In this document: positions 1 to 39,803 of the stretch, piece by piece | Layout of the letters: the number at the start of each line of letters is the position of its first letter | Position numbering within the stretch: the stretch's first letter is position 1 | Source: Acidobacteriota bacterium | GTDB taxonomy: Bacteria > Acidobacteriota > Blastocatellia > UBA7656 | DNA: 51,798 nucleotides | Reading direction: 5' to 3' | Assembly (NCBI GenBank): GCA_016201275.1 | Contig: JACQDB010000071.1 | Coordinates: 1 to 51,798, forward strand | Position numbers and translations under genes: made by a program | Notes under the pieces: model-generated | What the model was told of the DNA's origin: nothing | What the model saw: the letters and a program-made list of their open reading frames with translations, nothing else | Database searches by the model: none

Positions 1-2286
1 ATCTACGGTTTTGCCGACCGCGACATTGCCTTTTGATTGGTCAATCGCGGTCGCATTGGTGACGTGAACCGTGCGCCCACCGACGCGCCAATCGCCGATT
101 AATCCACTCGACGGCAAGCTCTCAACAACGGCAGTGAATTCGGTAGAACTCCCGCCGCTACCTCCGGAACCGCCGCCACCGGAACCGCCGCCAGAACCAC
201 CGCCGCCGGATTGGAGATTGCCTTGCAGCACCACCTGCCCAGATGAATTGCGAACTTCGATTTGGCCTATGCTGGTCGCGGGTTGCAGAGCCTGCGGCAA
301 CGAGCCATCATCGCTGCGATACTCGGCTCGGAAATAACCCGATGGAGAGGCCGTAGCAGAACCCAGTTGCACGCCGTTGGCAACGATGGTGAAAGCCGCT
401 CCGCCAGGTAAATGGTCGCCCTCGACTTCAAACTTCTGATGCTCCGATTCGATCTCGGCTTTGGCGGAGCCGCTGGCTTGCGGAATCACGCTGGTAGGCG
501 ACAGCGGAACCTCTTTTTCAGAAGACTGTCCGCCGCCCATGCCGCCACCTGTACCGCCACCCATGCCGCCGCCGCCGCCCGTGCCGCCACCGGTGCCGCC
601 GCCTGTGGTCGCAGTGAAATCGCCTTGTAGAATCACGACGCCTTGCGGGTTGCGAATTTCCACATGACTCAAACCGCTTACCGGATTCAAAAACCCTGGC
701 AGCGCGAGGTGATCGCTGCCGGGCAACGTGGATAATTCAATCCTCAAACCGCCAAAGCTGTTGGCCGTCGCGGTCGCCGTAAAACTTCCTGTCGCACTGT
801 TGAGAACGATGGCATAAGCAACGCCTGGGCGTATGCTGTTGGCTTCTACTTCTATCTCCTGCTCGTTTGCCATCACCATGTATTCGGCTGAACCACGCGC
901 CGCAACCTCTATGCCGGTGGCGGTCAAATTAATCTTGGCGTGATTGAGCGCCGGAGTTGTAGAAGCCTCCAGACTGCGTACTGCGTTCAAAGGGTTGATG
1001 CGGCCTTTGCCGAGTTTGCCTGAAAAGGTTTGATTTTTGGCATCAATTGCATCGGCATTATTTTCGATAATGCTGCGAGCATCTGCGGTCGAGCGTCTTT
1101 CTAAAATCAACGCCGCTTCACCGGCCACAAAGGGCGCGGCAAAAGAGGTGCCGCTCCACATCGCATAATCGCCGCTGCCTGCGCCCGGATAGGTGCTGAA
1201 GATGTGAACGCCGGGCGCGGCGATGGATACGCCCGCACCGAAATTCGAGAACGCCGCTTTCACGTCGCTGTCATCAACCGCCGCTACGCTCATGGTTTCG
1301 TCTTTCCACGCGGCAGGAAATCTAGGTGTAGCATCGGTGTTGTCGTTTTCATTGCCGACCGCAGCGATCAGCAAAGCGCCGCGTTGTCTGGCATAGCTGA
1401 CCGCGTCGTGCAGGAGACTGGAATTTTCCTCCGAGCCAAAACTTAAATTAATAATATTGGCTCCGTGATCGGCGGCATACTTGATGGCAGCGGCAACCGT
1501 AAAGGCATCGCTTAAGCCATCGGTGTCGAATGCCCGCACCGGCATGATGATGGCTTTGGGCGCGACCAGATTGATGATGCCGGCAATAAAAGTGCCGTGA
1601 CCGGCAACGCTGGTTTGCGGATCGGGCGGCGCGGTCTCCCAAGGGTCTTTATCGTTGCTGACAAAATCCCAGCCATTGGCATCGTCTATCAGGCCGTCGT
1701 TGTCATCATCCAAACCGTTGTTGGGAATTTCGGCTTTCGCGCTGCGCGTATCGTGCCACAGTTGCGCGGCCAACTGCACATGATTTTTATCAATGCCGGT
1801 GTCCACAACCGCTATGACGATGCCTGCGCCGGTGGCGCGTTCCTGAGTTTCAGATAATTGCAGTTGCGCGATGAGCGCTTGCGTATTGTACAGACTGGCG
1901 GGCTGCGCGGGTGTAGGATGGCCGTTGGGGAAATTCAAGTGTGCGCGGGCGAAGGCGGTAATCGGATTCAACACTACAGGGTTGAGCGCAACGCTCAATA
2001 AATCGGGGTCGTTGGCGAGACGCTTGCGCCACTTGGCTTCTTTTTTACCTTTCGGAGTGCGTAGGCGGTAGAGGTTAGTGCCGTAAATCTGTTGAATCGT
2101 GGTGGTCTCCCAGCGCGCATTGATCGTCGCAATCGAGATGCCCGGTTTGACTTCGACGATAAGCTCGCCCTTGCGATATTCAATTTCCGACGCGGGAGTT
2201 TGCGCGACCACAGACAGGCAGGACAAGCATAACCATGCGAACAGGAAAATGGCTCGGGTCAGACTCTGTTTTTGTATATGATTCAT
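1..2286 (-). CDS. exported subtilisin-like serine protease (S8), 3' end cut by window edge
   Basis: The frame is open for 762 codons from ATG at 2286 to the window edge, so the C-terminus is missing. Residues 1 to about 28 form a Sec signal peptide (hydrophobic stretch AIFLFAWLCLSCLSVVAQ). The S8 catalytic triad is complete: Asp162 in VVDTGID, His230 in GHGTFIAG, Ser381 in GTSFAAPFVAG, with oxyanion Asn312 in VGNEN. An N-terminal prodomain-like stretch (about 30-110) precedes the catalytic domain. After about residue 440 come beta-rich repeats, each ending in a pattern like IEVRN..G.VVLQG, joined by two Gly-rich linkers at about 561-586 and 691-714. The start lies 7 bp downstream of the stop of the CHAT gene, so both are very likely co-transcribed. 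An exported endoprotease is a firm family inference; its substrate is unknown. Confidence 0.93.
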   Translation of the reverse strand, partial: MNHIQKQSLTRAIFLFAWLCLSCLSVVAQTPASEIEYRKGELIVEVKPGISIATINARWETTTIQQIYGTNLYRLRTPKGKKEAKWRKRLANDPDLLSVALNPVVLNPITAFARAHLNFPNGHPTPAQPASLYNTQALIAQLQLSETQERATGAGIVIAVVDTGIDKNHVQLAAQLWHDTRSAKAEIPNNGLDDDNDGLIDDANGWDFVSNDKDPWETAPPDPQTSVAGHGTFIAGIINLVAPKAIIMPVRAFDTDGLSDAFTVAAAIKYAADHGANIINLSFGSEENSSLLHDAVSYARQRGALLIAAVGNENDNTDATPRFPAAWKDETMSVAAVDDSDVKAAFSNFGAGVSIAAPGVHIFSTYPGAGSGDYAMWSGTSFAAPFVAGEAALILERRSTADARSIIENNADAIDAKNQTFSGKLGKGRINPLNAVRSLEASTTPALNHAKINLTATGIEVAARGSAEYMVMANEQEIEVEANSIRPGVAYAIVLNSATGSFTATATANSFGGLRIELSTLPGSDHLALPGFLNPVSGLSHVEIRNPQGVVILQGDFTATTGGGTGGGTGGGGGMGGGTGGGMGGGQSSEKEVPLSPTSVIPQASGSAKAEIESEHQKFEVEGDHLPGGAAFTIVANGVQLGSATASPSGYFRAEYRSDDGSLPQALQPATSIGQIEVRNSSGQVVLQGNLQSGGGGSGGGSGGGGSGGSGGSSTEFTAVVESLPSSGLIGDWRVGGRTVHVTNATAIDQSKGNVAVGKTVD

Positions 2287-2293
2287 AACTCCC

Positions 2294-5158
2294 TCAATCT
2301 AGGCACGCCGCTGCGGTGTCGCCCATCAACACAAACGGGGCCCAGTAATACGGATGTCCATAATCATCTTTGACAGCCAGTTGCGCCTGTCGTAAAGCCG
2401 CACGTTTGCTGTGTCCGGCTTTCAGATTGAGGTACATTTCACGCATCAATTCGGTGGTCGAACGATCATTAACAGCCCACAAACTGACCACCATAGAAGG
2501 CGTACCGGCATAGAGAAAACCGCGCATCAACCCATGTAATTCATCGCCCGGAAAGATCGCATTAACGCCGGTGTGACAAGCCGATAGCGTCACCAGTTCG
2601 GCCTGCAACTCCAGGTCGAGCAGATTGTAAAAATGCAAATGGGAATCCGCGAGTTTCAAAAACGAAAACATCGGGTTGTCGCGGCGAAAATATCCGTGTG
2701 AGGCCAGATGCAAAAGTTGAGCTTGCGGCGCAAGCCTTTTGAGATTTTCGTGGGTGGCGCGGTTCCCTGTCAACTGTATGGCGTCAGGAAAAATTTCGCC
2801 CAGCGCGACGATCTCCTCGGCAATGCTCGGCGTGCCGCTTTCGGCTATCCCTAAAGCCAGCATCGTGATGGCTGTTGGTCGAGAGGGCGTGGCCAACTGC
2901 CTTTGGGTTTTCGCCCGACACAATTTCAACACCGAGGCGCTCGGCGCATAAGAAATTTCATACTCATCAATCAAATAGTTTTCGCCTTTTCGCAGCGCGT
3001 GAAACGGCGCGTAATGCAACAAGCCGTGCGGAATGATGATGACCTTCGTGCGGCTCAACAGCGCTTCAATCGGCGCGAACAGTTGGCGATACAGATCAAC
3101 CAGATGACCGTCGGTGGTGCGCTTCAATTGCCCGAAATACGCCTCTACATAAGCCGCGCCGTAGTTGAATTTTTCGATTTGAAAGCGCAGCCCCATCAAA
3201 GATTTTTCGACCTCTTTTTTGGAAGCGAGGTTGCGGGCGATGGTGATTTGCTCGCGGGAAGCGACAAAGGCGGAGACTTCATCGCCGGTGATAAAAAATT
3301 CGACAGCGCATTCGTCGGCCTCTAAGGTGTCGCGTAAATCGTTCACCTCGGAAGACGGCACGCTTTGAATTTCGGCAAACGCCGAAGCCGCCGACTCCAA
3401 GCGCCGGAACAAGCGCGCGATCTGTTTTTCGCAACGCGCCACTTCGCGGCGATAGGCGGCGGCGTTGTCGGCCTTGCGCTGCTCGCCTTTGTCATCTTCA
3501 AGCCCTGCGTGCGAACTGTACCAGTTCAAATCGGCAATCAATTTCGCCAGCCGCTCGCGGACTTCGAGATTGGGTTCGCGGCTGGCGACCGACTCGCTTT
3601 CGTTGGCATAACGCGCCATCAAATCGGCCAACGCCCGCGACTTCGACGATTCGACCAGGCGAAAGGCTTCCTCAATTAAAGCCTCGCCGCCGTTGTCCAG
3701 ACAGGCTTTGATGGTGTCTTCATAAACCGTTATTTTATCGCGTAAAAATGTGGTCTTGAATTCATCGGCGGCAATGCCTGCGCGCATCTTTTCGATGACC
3801 GCGACGGCGCGACGAAAATAGTCCAGTGCCGGACGCTGGCGCTGTTGTTCAAGTTGTCCCAGCAGGTGCAGGCTCTTAAACACAATGGTTGGCGCGTAGA
3901 TTTCATCCACTTCTTTTAACGCCGCTTTCGCCAGTCGCGCTGCCTTCGCCAGTTCGCCCAATTGAAAAGCCGCGCGCCCTGCCAGCAAACGCGCATAGGC
4001 CGAGCGCGTGGCGAGATGCTGTTTTTGAAAAGCGCGACGTGCGGTTTCGGCGCGTTCGAGCGCTTCGGCATAATCCTGGCGATGCAGCGCCAATTCCGCC
4101 ATATACAGTTCGGCCAGCGCCGTAAAAGTTTTGTTGTTCTGCTCGACAAACGCCTGTTGCGCCATTCGCAAATCGTCTTGCGCCTGAGCGAAATCTTCCA
4201 GCCCCATCGCCGCCAAGGCGCGAGTCAGCGAAGCTTTGGCCGACTCGTACTTCATGCCCAGTTCATCGAATTGCTTGCGCGCACTGGTAGCGCTTTCAAA
4301 AGCGTCTTCAAAAGCGTTCAAGGCAAACAGCACGTCAGCGATTTCCAAATCGCACCAGGCGACAAATTGTTGATCGCCCAATTGCTGCAGCCGCTCGCGG
4401 GTTTGATAATAACCGTGCAACGCGGTGTTGTAATGGCCGCGCAAAAACTGTATGTAAGCGATATGAAAATTTGCCAGCGCCGCATTGACCGCCAGGCCGG
4501 ATTGATCAAAAGCCTTGCCGGAACTTTCAAACAAGCGCAAGGCTTCATCAGGTTTGTCCAACTCGGTGAAAATATCGGCGCGATTCAAATCCACCAGCGC
4601 CTGCATGGATTTTTCACCTGCCGTAGCAAACATTTCGCGGGCGCGATTGTAATGCTCAAGGGCTTTGTGATAGCGATCCAGTTGATAGTAAACATTGCCG
4701 ACGTTGGTTTCGAGTTGCGCCAGTTGTACAGGCGAATCCAGAGCGCGGCGGGCGCGGCGGGCAATCTTCAAGGCATCTTGAAAACGGCCTAAGCGTTTGA
4801 GCGCGTCCACCTGAGACTTTTGCAGCAGAGCCGCTTCGTTGGTGAGATTGGCGCGGCGCAGCGCCGTCACCGCGCTTTCATAAAATTGGTTAGCATCATG
4901 AGGATTACCCTGTTGATGGAGCAGGCGTGCGCGTGAAGCTTCGGCAAAGGCGTTGGCAAGCGGGTCTTTGACCAGCACGGCCAGTTCATCTACACGCGAG
5001 GAAAGTTGGGCGGCGGCTTTGAGGTCGGAAGCGGTCAGGCGATCAACTTCGGATTTCAGCGCCGCAAAAGTTTGCCAGTTCACGCCGCTGCGTTGGGCGC
5101 GCAAAAACGCTGCGGCGCTCGTCGCTTTCATTAATTGATTCGCCAGTTTAATGCTCAC
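2294..5158 (-). CDS. TPR-CHAT caspase-like protease
   Basis: This 954-residue protein has no signal peptide or membrane segment. Residues about 40-430 are a run of tetratricopeptide-like helical repeats (for example LETNVGNVYYQLDRYHKAL), followed by a charged helical region and a C-terminal CHAT domain (about 625-950). The caspase-type dyad is visible: His821 in HLASHGYF and Cys861 in TLSACHTG, followed by the family hallmark SLWAVND. CHAT proteins are clan CD cysteine peptidases, and the TPR part normally binds a partner or substrate. The start is GTG at 5158 with no clear ribosome site; an in-frame ATG at 5131 is an alternative. It lies between a zinc-finger anti-sigma-like gene (95 bp upstream) and an exported subtilase (7 bp downstream), in one row with an ECF sigma factor. 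A role as the protease that releases the sigma factor is inference. Confidence 0.92.
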   Translation of the reverse strand: MSIKLANQLMKATSAAAFLRAQRSGVNWQTFAALKSEVDRLTASDLKAAAQLSSRVDELAVLVKDPLANAFAEASRARLLHQQGNPHDANQFYESAVTALRRANLTNEAALLQKSQVDALKRLGRFQDALKIARRARRALDSPVQLAQLETNVGNVYYQLDRYHKALEHYNRAREMFATAGEKSMQALVDLNRADIFTELDKPDEALRLFESSGKAFDQSGLAVNAALANFHIAYIQFLRGHYNTALHGYYQTRERLQQLGDQQFVAWCDLEIADVLFALNAFEDAFESATSARKQFDELGMKYESAKASLTRALAAMGLEDFAQAQDDLRMAQQAFVEQNNKTFTALAELYMAELALHRQDYAEALERAETARRAFQKQHLATRSAYARLLAGRAAFQLGELAKAARLAKAALKEVDEIYAPTIVFKSLHLLGQLEQQRQRPALDYFRRAVAVIEKMRAGIAADEFKTTFLRDKITVYEDTIKACLDNGGEALIEEAFRLVESSKSRALADLMARYANESESVASREPNLEVRERLAKLIADLNWYSSHAGLEDDKGEQRKADNAAAYRREVARCEKQIARLFRRLESAASAFAEIQSVPSSEVNDLRDTLEADECAVEFFITGDEVSAFVASREQITIARNLASKKEVEKSLMGLRFQIEKFNYGAAYVEAYFGQLKRTTDGHLVDLYRQLFAPIEALLSRTKVIIIPHGLLHYAPFHALRKGENYLIDEYEISYAPSASVLKLCRAKTQRQLATPSRPTAITMLALGIAESGTPSIAEEIVALGEIFPDAIQLTGNRATHENLKRLAPQAQLLHLASHGYFRRDNPMFSFLKLADSHLHFYNLLDLELQAELVTLSACHTGVNAIFPGDELHGLMRGFLYAGTPSMVVSLWAVNDRSTTELMREMYLNLKAGHSKRAALRQAQLAVKDDYGHPYYWAPFVLMGDTAAACLD

Positions 5159-5202
5159 GTATTTTTTTTTCGAGACTCAAGCCTGCTAAAAAAGGCAATC
5201 GT

Positions 5203-5239
5203 AAAAGGGCAAAAGGCAAGCTGCACGGTCAGCCTTGCC
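5203..5239 (-). terminator. weak hairpin with T-rich tail between zinc-finger and CHAT genes
   Basis: Read on the minus strand, GGCAAG and CTTGCC pair over a 13-nt loop and are followed by TTTTGCCCTTTT. The stem is only 6 bp, so it may attenuate rather than end transcription from the sigma/zinc-finger genes into the CHAT gene. Confidence 0.3.
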
Positions 5240-5253
5240 GCTGAACCAAAGTG

Positions 5254-5874
5254 CTATTGCTCCTGTATAACTGGAACGCCCGCCGCCAGCACAAAGCCGA
5301 CAGGAGTTTCGATTTGCAAATCATAAATGCCTTGCTCGATGCCGCTGATGGTAAATTCACCCATGCGATTGGTCGTTGCCAGAAACGGCTCTTTGTCGGC
5401 GCTCGACAATACCAATGGCAAATTCGCTACCGACTCGAAAGAGGTTTCGCCTTCGCGCAGAATTTGCCCGACCAGATCGGCGGAGGCTTTGCTGGACGGC
5501 GCGATTTGTAAATCAATGCTGTAATCGCCGGCGTTGTAGAGCAACTGGCGATTGCTAGTTTCGGTGGAGCGTGCGCCGGCAAGCGCCGGACGCGACAGGC
5601 TGTCGAAAACCAGCGCGGCGAGCGCTTGACCCAAGCGCTCGACGAGGCGCGGACGTTGGGTTTCAAAAATTCGCAGCGCCCGTTTGGTCACCCAAGCCGG
5701 TGGCTCCACCATGTCATCGCTGGCGGCAAGCGCGCGAGTCTGTTGATACCAATTTTGATTGGCGGCGCATTTCGCGCAACCCGTGTTCAAGTGCCAGGCC
5801 AAGCGCGCCGCTTCATCGGCAGTAAGGTTGCCATCCAGATAATCCAGCAGGCGCTCAAAGTTTGGGCATTTCAT
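5254..5874 (-). CDS. zinc-finger anti-sigma-like protein
   Basis: The 206-residue protein begins MKCPNFERLLDYLDGNLT and contains H-x4-C-x2-C (HLNTGCAKC) at about residues 31-39, together with Cys3. This resembles the zinc-binding anti-sigma (ZAS/zf-HC2) module that clamps ECF sigma factors, although the classical spacing is H-x3-C-x2-C. I chose ATG at 5874 because GAGG and AAGG lie just upstream; a TTG start at 5904 would add ten residues. No transmembrane helix is visible, so it would be a soluble anti-sigma factor. The C-terminal half looks like a small beta-sandwich (GEFTISGIEQGIYDLQIETP, as in carboxypeptidase-regulatory domains). It lies directly downstream of the ECF sigma gene and upstream of the TPR-CHAT gene. 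The anti-sigma role is inferred from motif and position. Confidence 0.75.
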   Translation of the reverse strand: MKCPNFERLLDYLDGNLTADEAARLAWHLNTGCAKCAANQNWYQQTRALAASDDMVEPPAWVTKRALRIFETQRPRLVERLGQALAALVFDSLSRPALAGARSTETSNRQLLYNAGDYSIDLQIAPSSKASADLVGQILREGETSFESVANLPLVLSSADKEPFLATTNRMGEFTISGIEQGIYDLQIETPVGFVLAAGVPVIQEQ

Positions 5875-6045
5875 AACCTTCGGTCCTCGTTCTTCGATTC
5901 TCAATTCAGCAGAGCCGATAAAGCGGTAAAAAATACATCATCGCTCATACAAAAATACACGCAAGGAAAAAAGCCGTTTACGGTACTAGCAGTTGGACGA
6001 CGCGTTCGGCGCTTTTTCCCTTTGGGGCAAGCTTCATCAGCGCTC

Positions 6046-6654
6046 TTAAAGTTTTCCTTCGAGTAATTTCTTGAGTTTTTCCAGACAACGCGCCCGCGTA
6101 GGGCCTATGGAAGCGACCGGCATATCCATCTGGCGGGCGATTTCGGCATAGCTCAAATCGTCCTTCTTGTAAAACAACATGGTCACCAAATCCTGGCAGC
6201 GTTCCGACAAAGCGGCTATCGCCTGACGCACCGCCTGTTGTTGTTCGAGAGCCAGGCGCTGCTCGTCGGCAAGCGGAGCCTCCGCAACCAGATGATTGAT
6301 TTTGCTCTGGGTTTCGTCGTCGCTGTCTTCATCGGCAGAGACTTCGCGCTTCTTGCGATTGGCCAAGCGCCAACTTTCGCGCATGGTCGTGGTGATAATC
6401 CATGAACTCAGGCGTTCGTGATCGCGCAGCGATTCAAGCTTTTCATACAATTTCAAACAGACCGATTGAAAAATATCGGCAGCATCATCTTGCGACAATC
6501 GGAATTTCAGCGGTATCGAATAAATCAGCCGTTGATAGCGATAGATTAATGTTTCCCAAGCCCTCGCCTGCCCTTTTAAGCAGGCGGCGATCAGGGCGCT
6601 GTCTTCACTTTCGAGAAATTGGTTGGCCGCCTCAGCATTCGGTTTTCGCTTCAT
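6046..6654 (-). CDS. ECF RNA polymerase sigma factor
   Basis: The 202-residue protein has sigma-70 region 2 at about residues 25-95 (LIYRYQRLIYSIPLKF, then DAADIFQSVCLKLYEKL and a WIITTTMRESW segment) and region 4 at about 140-200 with the helix-turn-helix LSYAEIARQMDMPVASIGPT. An acidic linker (SADEDSDDE) separates them. Length and layout are normal for an extracytoplasmic-function sigma factor, which directs RNA polymerase to a small regulon. It is the first gene of the minus-strand row that continues with the zinc-finger protein, the CHAT protease and the subtilase, so these are its likely regulators and targets. About 170 bp separate it from the next gene. Confidence 0.92.
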   Translation of the reverse strand: MKRKPNAEAANQFLESEDSALIAACLKGQARAWETLIYRYQRLIYSIPLKFRLSQDDAADIFQSVCLKLYEKLESLRDHERLSSWIITTTMRESWRLANRKKREVSADEDSDDETQSKINHLVAEAPLADEQRLALEQQQAVRQAIAALSERCQDLVTMLFYKKDDLSYAEIARQMDMPVASIGPTRARCLEKLKKLLEGKL

Positions 6655-6921: not shown

Positions 6922-6976
6922 GTAGGGCGAAATACGTAAGGCGGAAGCGGGAACAATTGAACCGATGAGTACCTCC
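6922..6976. repeat. dispersed 55-bp repeat, copy 1
   Basis: This stretch matches 42651-42705 in the same orientation at about 47 of 55 positions by eye, including the shared words GTAAGGC, GGGAAC and CCGATGAGTA. It is the left neighbour of the 26-bp tandem repeat. Confidence 0.7.
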
Positions 6977-7048
6977 TACGGCGCTGAACCATAGGTCGTT
7001 CCTACGGCGCTGAACCATAGGTCGTTCCTACGGCGCGAAACCATAGGG
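6974..7048. repeat. 26-bp tandem direct repeat, about 2.9 copies
   Basis: The unit begins TCCTACGGCGCTGAACCATA and starts at 6974, 7000 and 7026. The first two copies are identical; the third diverges after CCTACGGCGC. No coding role is apparent. The remaining bases up to the next gene (7049-7224) show nothing else I can name. Confidence 0.85.
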
Positions 7049-7224
7049 CGCTTTTACAGAGCGAAACCGGCGCAGTTGGTTGCCAGTCAAGCCCTATTTT
7101 TTTTCGCACTACCAAATAAGAAAGCCGCCAACTTTTTGGTTAGCGGCTGGGCTGCATTTTATTTTTTATGTGCAGCGTCAACGTCGTGTGTTTGGTAAAA
7201 ACTCTTTGTGGTTGCCGACCGTCA

Positions 7225-7824
7225 TCAAGCAACTTCGGCGCGTTGCTGAATCAGGCGGCGCAATTTCAAACGCGCTTTGTGCAACTGCGATTTTGAAGTG
7301 CCGGGACTGCATCCCAAGATTCGCGCAATCTCTTCGTGTTCATACCCTTCGACATCGTGCAGCACAAACGCCGTGCGATAACCGGGCGGCAGTTGCGCGA
7401 TGGCGGTTTCCAAAGCGATGCGATCAATGATCGGCATAGCTTCCGGGTTGATAGTGTCTGGGTCAATCGAATCGGGCATCTCGCCATCGTCGGTCGTCAA
7501 CTCCGATTTCACCGAGCGTTTGCGAAAGTGCATCAACACCTGGTTGACGGTCAAACGATGCAGCCAAGTGGTGAAGGCTGACTCGCCGCGAAACGAGCCC
7601 AATTTCCGGTGCAATTGAATAAAAACTTCTTGGGTTAAATCTTCCGCCTCGGCGACATTGCCGGTCATTCTGAGGCATATCGAATAAACCCTGCGATAAT
7701 GTTTTCGATATAATTCTTCAAACCCGCTCATCTGTTCGCCGCCTAGAGCCGAGCAAATTTCTACTTCGCTCAACGGCGTTTTGATATTGGTATCGGCAGT
7801 CATCGAAATCCCGCTGGTCGTCAT
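7225..7824 (-). CDS. ECF RNA polymerase sigma factor (RpoE-like)
   Basis: A compact ECF sigma factor of 199 residues from the chosen start. Region 2 ([55 protein letters not shown]) and region 4 ([40 protein letters not shown]) are both intact. I placed the start at ATG 7824 because GGGGAAGGAG sits 6 nt upstream; in-frame starts up to 7860 would put the ribosome site inside the gene. Unlike the sigma gene at 6046-6654, no anti-sigma gene adjoins it: downstream is the tandem-repeat gap and upstream an AraC regulator on the other strand. Its inducing signal and regulon cannot be read from the window. Confidence 0.92.
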
Positions 7825-8206
7825 TTTCATCTCCTTCCCCGTCGTATCCATTTTCTGCAACGGGTGCGCTCTGATAGTGCGACTAACGTGCCATTGCGTC
7901 AGCCCTCTGGCCTAACCATGTAAGTCAATTAATAATAGGATTTATTTTCTACGTAAGAAAAGGGCAGGAAAGTTGACCTTTTTTGAGACACTGGTTTTGG
8001 GATGGACTCATACCTTTTGGTGTAGGAATCATATGAAAAGGTTGCAAGCCCGACGGTTTAATCTCAGACCAGCGAGACAGATTAAGCAAAGGCCAAGCAG
8101 CACAGGCAATAAACCCGGCAAGCGGCAGCAAAGCGCCGCCTGATGGCAAAAGGGTACGGCCAATACTTTCTCAATACACCCAATGAACTGGCTCGTGATT
8201 GAGGGT
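7825..8206. other. divergent intergenic region between ECF sigma and AraC genes
   Basis: About 380 bp without a credible gene; it should hold the promoter of the leftward ECF gene. Two overlapping minus-strand frames (7949-8149 and 8029-8316) have no family features and run into the AraC coding region. Confidence 0.4.
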
Positions 8207-29905: not shown

Positions 29906-30002
29906 AAGCTGCAAGTCTTGAGTGATTTTCCAATGCCCTGTAGCGGCGACGCTGAGGTCGTCGCCGCTACAGGGTTGCAGATTATTTCGCGCCCAATCCT
30001 TA
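29906..30002. repeat. palindromic element, family C copy 2
   Basis: In inverse orientation this matches 16241-16357: TTGAGTGATTTTCCAATGCC, the central palindrome CCCTGTAGCGGCGAC/GTCGCCGCTACAGGG, and the end ATCCTTA. The last bases contain the TAA stop codon of the subtilase gene at 30000-31142. Confidence 0.75.
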
Positions 30003-31142
30003 CGCTCGTAAGGCTCTGGCTTCGACCAGCAAGCGAAGTTGCAGATGGCGTCGCACCGCGTCCAGTGCAGTTAAGGCATCAACTCGAAAATATTTCAAAC
30101 CGGTATGATGAACATTGTCATTCTCATCATCGCCGTCTTCAATCTCGACGCCGCCTTGACGAAGCCAGGTGACCAAATCTTCAACCGCTGGCATCTGGTT
30201 GGTTTGCCGGAAATAAAACTGCTGCATCAAAAGCACCATACCGGCAATCACCGGCGTCGCCTGGCTGGTGCCGCTTTGCACCGATTCGCCATTGTCCGAT
30301 GCGATACCGGAGGAAGTGACGGGCGCGCCGGGAGCGAAAATATCGGTGCGCGTATGGGGATTTACGCTCTCGTGAAGGCGCTGCGAAAAAGGCGTAAGCT
30401 GCCCGGCGCGAGTGGAAAAGGCGGTTCCCAGATTGCCGTCTTGCCCATAGCTGATCGGTCCGCCGATATTGGAATCATAGACTGCGCCCACGCTGATGGT
30501 ATCCGATAAAATCGCCGGAAAGCTCATGCCCGGCTCCGAGTTGTGGGTAGCGAAGTCATTCCCTGCAGCCACCACCACTGGCACTCTTTCGGCTTTTAAC
30601 TGCCGGATACGATTACTCACTTTGTCGTCCTCAAAGCCGCCATCTGAGGTATAGTTGCCGGAATCGCCGAGAGACATCGAAACCACTGTGATGTTGTACT
30701 GCTGGCGATTTTCCAGCACCCAGTCCAGCGCTTCGGCAACAGCGTTGAAAGAGCCTCCGCCCATATTGGTCAAGACTTTTAGCGGCACGATTCCGGCTCC
30801 GGGGGCAACGCCGATATGCCGACCATTGGCGGCAATGATGCCACCAACATTGGTACCATGCCCTTGTCCATCGGAAGCATCATTAGGATTCCCGCCATTG
30901 TCACTGGTAAAATTCCGTTGCGCTTTGACGCGCCCGGAAAAATCTATATGCGTGGCACGCAGTCCGGTATCCAGCACTGCTGCCGTGAAACCATTCCCCG
31001 TCACCGAAAACATGGAGCGTGCTTCATTGAGGCGCAAAAAATTAGTGATTTCCACCAACAGAGCGTGGAGTTGAGGTTGCGAAAATTGAACGGGTTTTTC
31101 GACCATACCAATCTGGTCTGGCGGTTGAATTACGTTAGTCAT
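30000..31142 (-). CDS. cytoplasmic subtilisin-like serine protease (S8)
   Basis: The 380-residue protein has the complete S8 catalytic set: Asp58 in AAVLDTGLR, His95 in GQGHGTNVGG, Asn195 in VAAGND and Ser293 in SGTSQATPVIAG. The N-terminal 45 residues are short and contain no signal peptide or membrane segment, so unlike the subtilase at 1-2286 it should act in the cytoplasm or be released by lysis. The C-terminus is helical (VDALTALDAVRRHLQLRLL) and acidic before that (EIEDGDDENDN). AAGGAG lies upstream of the ATG. It overlaps the small zinc/HTH gene by 8 bp. A processing protease for a product of this locus is an attractive guess. Confidence 0.92.
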   Translation of the reverse strand: MTNVIQPPDQIGMVEKPVQFSQPQLHALLVEITNFLRLNEARSMFSVTGNGFTAAVLDTGLRATHIDFSGRVKAQRNFTSDNGGNPNDASDGQGHGTNVGGIIAANGRHIGVAPGAGIVPLKVLTNMGGGSFNAVAEALDWVLENRQQYNITVVSMSLGDSGNYTSDGGFEDDKVSNRIRQLKAERVPVVVAAGNDFATHNSEPGMSFPAILSDTISVGAVYDSNIGGPISYGQDGNLGTAFSTRAGQLTPFSQRLHESVNPHTRTDIFAPGAPVTSSGIASDNGESVQSGTSQATPVIAGMVLLMQQFYFRQTNQMPAVEDLVTWLRQGGVEIEDGDDENDNVHHTGLKYFRVDALTALDAVRRHLQLRLLVEARALRA

Positions 31143-39644: not shown

Positions 39645-39728
39645 CTTTCACTTGCTCCTGGTCTTTCTGTTGCTGTTATACCGTAAGAAAGTTGGTGGCG
39701 CAAAGCAGCGCCGTAAAGGAAGGGGAAG

Positions 39729-39803
39729 AAAATATACTCCCATAATGGCCGTGAAAATATTACCCCATAATGGCCGTGAAAATATCACCTCATATTGGCC
39801 GTT
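39729..39803. repeat. 25-bp tandem repeat, three copies
   Basis: The unit containing TAATGGCCGTGAAAATAT recurs with a 25-bp period (TGGCC at 39746, 39771 and 39796). It abuts the hairpin at 39801-39853. Confidence 0.8.

Follow-up and report, generated by a model that had tools for sequence, protein, structure and literature searches.

The window analysed here is a stretch of 51,798 bp from an Acidobacteriota bacterium and represents one whole contig (C125) of the 6.84-Mb genome. At one of its ends four genes lie on the minus strand in the order ECF sigma factor, zinc protein, TPR-CHAT protease and exported S8 subtilase (Table 1). This order, as well as the intact His821/Cys861 pair of the CHAT protein and the intact subtilase triad, had been given in a preliminary description of the sequence; all of these are present, and Pfam assigns the genes in the same way. 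Just upstream of the module there is a second ECF sigma gene, which occupies the same place in several relatives of the same family (L049, L050, L051, L053).

Table 1 Features of the module and further elements of the window.
Feature	Position	Strand	Remarks
ECF sigma factor	6046-6654	-	202 aa; Pfam Sigma70_r2/r4
Zinc / anti-sigma-like (ZAS-like) protein	5254-5874	-	206 aa; two domains
Arg102-containing loop (residues 92-108) of the zinc protein	5551-5601 (Arg102 codon 5569-5571)	-	candidate site of cleavage by CHAT, AGAR↓S
Putative promoter read by the sigma factor	5908-5937	-	TGTATTTTTT-N13-CTCTGCT; ~35-65 bp upstream of the zinc protein gene
TPR-CHAT protease	2294-5158	-	954 aa; GTG start
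CHAT residues His821, Cys861, Asp898 (codons)	2696-2698, 2576-2578, 2465-2467	-	
Exported S8 subtilase	1-2286	-	signal peptide; truncated at contig end
Second ECF sigma factor	7225-7860	-	SigE/SigM-like
Repeats between both sigma genes	6974-7051		three head-to-tail 26-nt repeats (TCCTACGGCGCTGAACCATAGGTCGT)
Further repeats	39728-39802		three tandem 25-nt repeats (GAAAATATACTCCCATAATGGCCGT)
S8 subtilase outside the module	30000-31142	-	380 aa

The subtilase (Pfam Peptidase_S8, 4e-44) possesses a signal peptide, a Fervidolysin-like prodomain and the triad Asp162/His230/Ser381, in agreement with its earlier designation as an exported protease, although it is truncated C-terminally since the window is a whole contig, the reading frame ending inside a C-terminal DUF5666 domain. 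In some relatives DUF5666 is likewise fused to the S8 protein. The S8 proteins of the module begin with signal sequences, and the triad is intact in 82 of the 83 that were aligned.

The TPR-CHAT protein contains a TPR array (residues ~1-520) and a CHAT domain (~688-947), the latter matched by the Pfam CHAT profile with 7.5e-64 and 216 bits against a cut-off of 24, with TPRs also matched. In fold, its structure model (mean pLDDT 90, pTM 0.88) is best matched by Csx29 (8eey, Z 32.8) and by separase, for which 5fby gives Z 30.0 and an rmsd of 3.0 Å over 330 residues; there are additional matches of the TPR arm to Rap, NprR and MalT. His821, Cys861 and Asp898, which belongs to an LWxVxD motif, are conserved in 54 of 55 CHAT proteins, the exception being a dead copy (L135) which has lost all three residues and has neither a sigma factor nor a partner protein, with an S8 gene on the other strand. 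In separase the Arg pocket is lined by an Asp at the corresponding place, and Asp898 is likely to be the Arg-pocket residue of the CHAT protein.

The zinc protein is the putative partner of both the sigma factor and the CHAT protease. Its zf-HC2 match is weak (E 0.0024, under the Pfam cut-off), but the AlphaFold2 model built from 48 sequences (mean pLDDT 88) contains anti-sigma-like N-terminal helices (residues 6-73) with the zinc ligands C3/H28/C33/C36. The HX3-4CX2C pattern and the upstream Cys by which ZAS domains are recognised are thus found in an anti-sigma helical fold, with profile scores below the cut-off, and the protein is predicted from these features to hold down the sigma factor. 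The preliminary description of a soluble zinc anti-sigma-like protein is borne out for this ZAS-like N-terminal domain, but it left undescribed a second, C-terminal β-domain (residues 83-202 of the model). The β-domain has a weak Pfam match to CarboxypepD_reg, and a fold search performed with it gave no match under E 0.001.

Residues 92-108 form an exposed loop, modelled with lower confidence than the rest of the protein. It carries Arg102, which is invariant in all 102 homologues, including the forms devoid of the zinc finger and the Meiothermus forms consisting of the β-domain only. The surrounding motif is PALAG[VA]R↓S/G, with P-A-L-A-G-V/A before the arginine and S/G/A after it, and the flanks resemble those of a protease site (P3 Gly in 79%, P1' Ser/Gly/Ala in 80%). 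Judging by this conservation, Arg102 is likely to be the place where the CHAT protease cuts to turn genes on. Asp91 is nearly invariant as well (96%), and the two residues could form a structural salt bridge, which counts against the reading of the locus as a proteolytic switch. They might then belong to a non-proteolytic partner switch, in which CHAT would bind the β-domain and release or recruit the anti-sigma protein by allostery, Arg102 remaining uncut and serving for docking or structure through its pairing with Asp91 or with CHAT. The near fixation of both residues would suit such a switch, and so would the binding of Csx30 to Csx29, which is independent of activation (PMC10028731). We regard it as rather unlikely, given the conservation of the catalytic dyad and Asp898 described above, the single dead copy being one without partners, and the loop-like flank of Arg102 with its small P1' residues.

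The N-terminal part of the partner is far more variable: the zinc ligands are missing in 22 of the 102 homologues, a zinc-less helical domain being present in some partners from Chloroflexota and Rubrobacter and other partners being shortened. Among about 200 further genomes of the Rubrobacter phylum there are partners with a short zinc-less N-terminus encoded beside sigma, CHAT and S8 genes, with the DS...R motif kept as judged by eye. Because zinc-less forms are common, zinc is not essential to the design. For the sigma group ECF54, proteolytic control without an anti-sigma factor has been proposed from the carboxypeptidase, subtilase and CHAT neighbours, according to PMC8999054 (citing Casas-Pastor et al. 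2021 and Huang et al. 2015), a precedent which the preliminary description overlooked. Applied here, that proposal from gene context would make the sigma factor itself the substrate, degraded by CHAT or by the subtilase so that the system is kept off, with the β-domain protein as an adaptor. It would accommodate the actinobacterial partners with a short zinc-less N-terminus, but 80 of the 102 partners carry zinc-ligand anti-sigma signatures, the usual mark of sigma inhibitors, and the signal sequences of the module subtilases indicate export, so these should not reach a cytoplasmic sigma factor; we consider it quite improbable.

A search among 58 relatives found homologues of the zinc protein in 22 genomes, and in the DNA around them the sigma, zinc protein, CHAT and S8 genes repeatedly occur together. 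A second copy of the four-gene set is present in the same genome (contig C62). Independently of the partner, 80 loci were collected from a public genome collection by CHAT alignment alone; they originate mostly from Acidobacteriota, but also from Chloroflexota, Rubrobacter, Meiothermus, Chthonomonas-type bacteria and Latescibacterota, the nearest named match being from an Acidobacteriota metagenome-assembled genome, Chloracidobacterium sp. UBA7656 (58% identity). In the 56 of these loci where CHAT has 2.5 kb or more of flanking sequence to either side, a β-domain (ZAS) partner was found in 54, a sigma gene in 50, an S8 gene in 45 and all four genes in 45. The preliminary description had called for a check of the gene order in related genomes, and the order is conserved. 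Two gene orders exist, sigma-zf-CHAT-S8 (39 loci) and sigma-CHAT-zf-S8 (33 loci), and in several relatives a gene for an exported DUF5666 or CusF-like protein lies between the sigma and zinc protein genes. By contrast, eight further TPR-CHAT paralogues were inspected in the genome to which the window belongs: none has a partner or an S8 gene nearby, and only one has an ECF sigma gene. Since the set recurs across many bacterial groups and is absent from these paralogues, the four genes occur together far above chance.

In Meiothermus, CHAT is accompanied by stand-alone β-domain proteins with the Arg motif, sigma factor and zinc finger being absent nearby; loci L151 (1922-9784) and L143 (2008-8155) encode CHAT, two β-domain proteins and a GAF-GGDEF-HD protein, with an S8 gene in L151. 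The β-domain with its arginine therefore goes with CHAT, and these loci possibly represent a sigma-free use of the same protease-substrate pair. As zinc-less, shortened and stand-alone β-domain partners all occur, the constant part of the module is CHAT and the Arg-loop β-domain, mostly with S8, and it is the sigma-facing part that varies.

The module sigma factors, 96 out of 96 and with the actinobacterial ones included, form one clade (support 0.835) against the other ECF sigma factors of three genomes; the sole outgroup label inside it, L236, is the window sigma factor itself, which entered through an overlapping locus. They share the recognition-helix motif SIGPxRxRCL. In strict intergenic gaps before ZAS, DUF5666 or S8 genes a fixed-spacing motif, RTATTTTT-N14-CNCT, was detected: in 18 of 26 sigma>zf gaps (0.37 expected from dinucleotide shuffles), in 17 of 31 CHAT>zf gaps (0.61 expected) and in 6 of 25 CHAT>S8 gaps (0.2 expected). 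The spacing of its halves is sharply peaked (25 versus at most 3), and similar sites were seen by eye upstream of DUF5666-type genes. We infer that the module sigma factor reads this promoter. The T-run was also considered as a terminator, which is not favoured because of the fixed-spacing CNCT downstream and the recurrence before different genes. Upstream of the sigma genes, a relaxed scan found the motif in 2 of 74 cases (0.86 expected); autoregulation of the sigma gene was rejected, there being no shared ECF motif upstream of it, and a motif upstream of sigma in the order with zf downstream was discounted as probably coding sequence. The suggestion that freed sigma turns on the subtilase finds partial agreement here, the predicted promoters lying before the inhibitor gene and, in part of the loci, before the subtilase or the exported DUF5666 gene.

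Only two strict matches exist in the whole genome, so a regulon is not claimed: one is the site in the window and the other (L168, C123:13761-13790) lies ~80 bp upstream of a gene which we take from its sequence to be DUF1800-like and which is a possible extra target. Relaxed matches do not exceed the reversed-pattern control (6 versus 5).

Some CHAT proteins are known effectors, and the one described here might act on other targets, for instance as a cell-suicide or defence protease, with the sigma/anti-sigma pair merely regulating its expression. This would agree with the motif preceding CHAT in the sigma-zf-CHAT-S8 order and with the persistence of CHAT and partner without sigma in Meiothermus; however, in the sigma-CHAT-zf-S8 order CHAT is upstream of the motif, beside sigma and not under its control, and it is the Arg-motif β-domain partners that Meiothermus retains. 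PADLOC matches were limited to generic TPR and subtilase models, and a defence system was rejected on that ground; action on other targets as a whole seems to us very improbable.

Taken together, it is moderately probable that the locus works as a sigma switch operated by proteolysis and independent of CRISPR, in which CHAT cuts the partner after Arg102 and so frees the sigma factor. The partner would hold the ECF sigma factor through its N-terminal anti-sigma domain and dock on TPR-CHAT through the C-terminal β-domain; upon a signal presumably received by the TPR part, CHAT would cut the exposed loop after Arg102, and the sigma-binding half, parted from the β-domain, would no longer hold sigma or would be destroyed. 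Free sigma would then transcribe the operon of anti-sigma, CHAT and subtilase genes, or else those for DUF5666 and the subtilase, the subtilase would be exported and newly made anti-sigma protein would reset the system. Since the N-terminal domain would stay intact after a cut at Arg102, a further step must release sigma, and the same problem exists for Csx30. The earlier proposal of CHAT cutting the anti-sigma factor is in this way partly supported, with a candidate site in an exposed loop and a separase-like Asp898 to match it. As to the signal, it is pure speculation that the TPR arm, with its fold like the peptide-binding Rap/NprR receptors, senses a peptide which the operon's own exported subtilase has matured.

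Partner distances track those of sigma and CHAT, the observed values being reached in 36 and 122 of 5000 within-genome swaps, respectively, a correlation for which linked inheritance alone can be sufficient. Domain-wise mirror trees gave no clean pairing of sigma with the zinc domain or of CHAT with the β-domain, and the partial correlations run against the expected domain pairs, sigma following the β-domain more than the zinc domain.

The literature found on this module is limited to the remark on ECF54 in PMC8999054 and to the Craspase paper. In the description cited by PMC8999054, ECF54 sigma factors have CHAT, subtilase and carboxypeptidase(-regulatory-like) neighbours; in the window CHAT and S8 are certain and CarboxypepD_reg is weak, though this match of the β-domain would explain the reported carboxypeptidase. 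The actinobacterial loci have an ECF54-like context, ECF54 being known here by its described context, and their sigma factors belong to the clade of the window sigma. ECF54 differs in being described without an anti-sigma factor and with the sigma factor itself possibly proteolysed, whereas here a ZAS-like domain, inhibitory by inference, is encoded beside sigma and the carboxypeptidase-regulatory-like part is half of the anti-sigma-like protein; the module also reaches well beyond Actinobacteria. The β-domain protein is probably the missing anti-sigma partner of ECF54, and the module probably an expansion of ECF54 with its anti-sigma-like partner identified. ECF54-type sigma factors gain from it a candidate anti-sigma, and it also provides a single-residue handle (Arg102) and a promoter motif.

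In type III-E Craspase, the CASP-sigma inhibitor Csx30 is cut by Csx29 within a loop of the C-terminal domain of Csx30 (PMC10028731), and the RNA-guided protease Csx29 is the only CHAT protein documented, in the literature found, as acting on a sigma inhibitor. The module shares with it a TPR-CHAT protein of similar fold, an ECF-type sigma factor and a partner divided into one part that faces sigma and another that faces CHAT, with a loop in its C-terminal domain. It differs in that the partner is not detectably related to Csx30, an exported subtilase is added, the TPR arm is longer, no RNA-guided partner was seen, and Csx29 in the alignment has Ser where the module CHATs have Asp898. As far as the window shows, the module is not a Craspase: no CRISPR-type repeat array is present in the window, which ends inside the subtilase, and the Csx29 model NF041237 scores 55 on the window CHAT against a cut-off of 300. 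The module rather suggests that the logic leading from CHAT to a sigma inhibitor is widespread and CRISPR-free. That it constitutes, across several phyla, a widespread CRISPR-independent switch, with a separase-like TPR-CHAT of Arg specificity cutting a modular anti-sigma factor at an invariant Arg and bringing Craspase logic into chromosomal signalling, is put forward tentatively, as possible but somewhat doubtful.

The N-terminal helical domain with C3/H28/C33/C36 resembles ZAS factors of the RsrA/RsiW type, from which the partner differs in scoring under the family cut-offs, in being soluble with a C-terminal β-domain and in having lost the zinc ligands in about one fifth of the homologues. 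With eukaryotic separase the CHAT protein shares the superposable region given above, the combination of a helical-repeat arm with a caspase-like domain and an Asp after the catalytic Cys as the presumed Arg-pocket residue, whereas the partners and the role are different and sequence identity is 16%. The module would stand as a bacterial case of signalling by separase-like proteolysis at a specific site, and as a natural relay from a protease to transcription.
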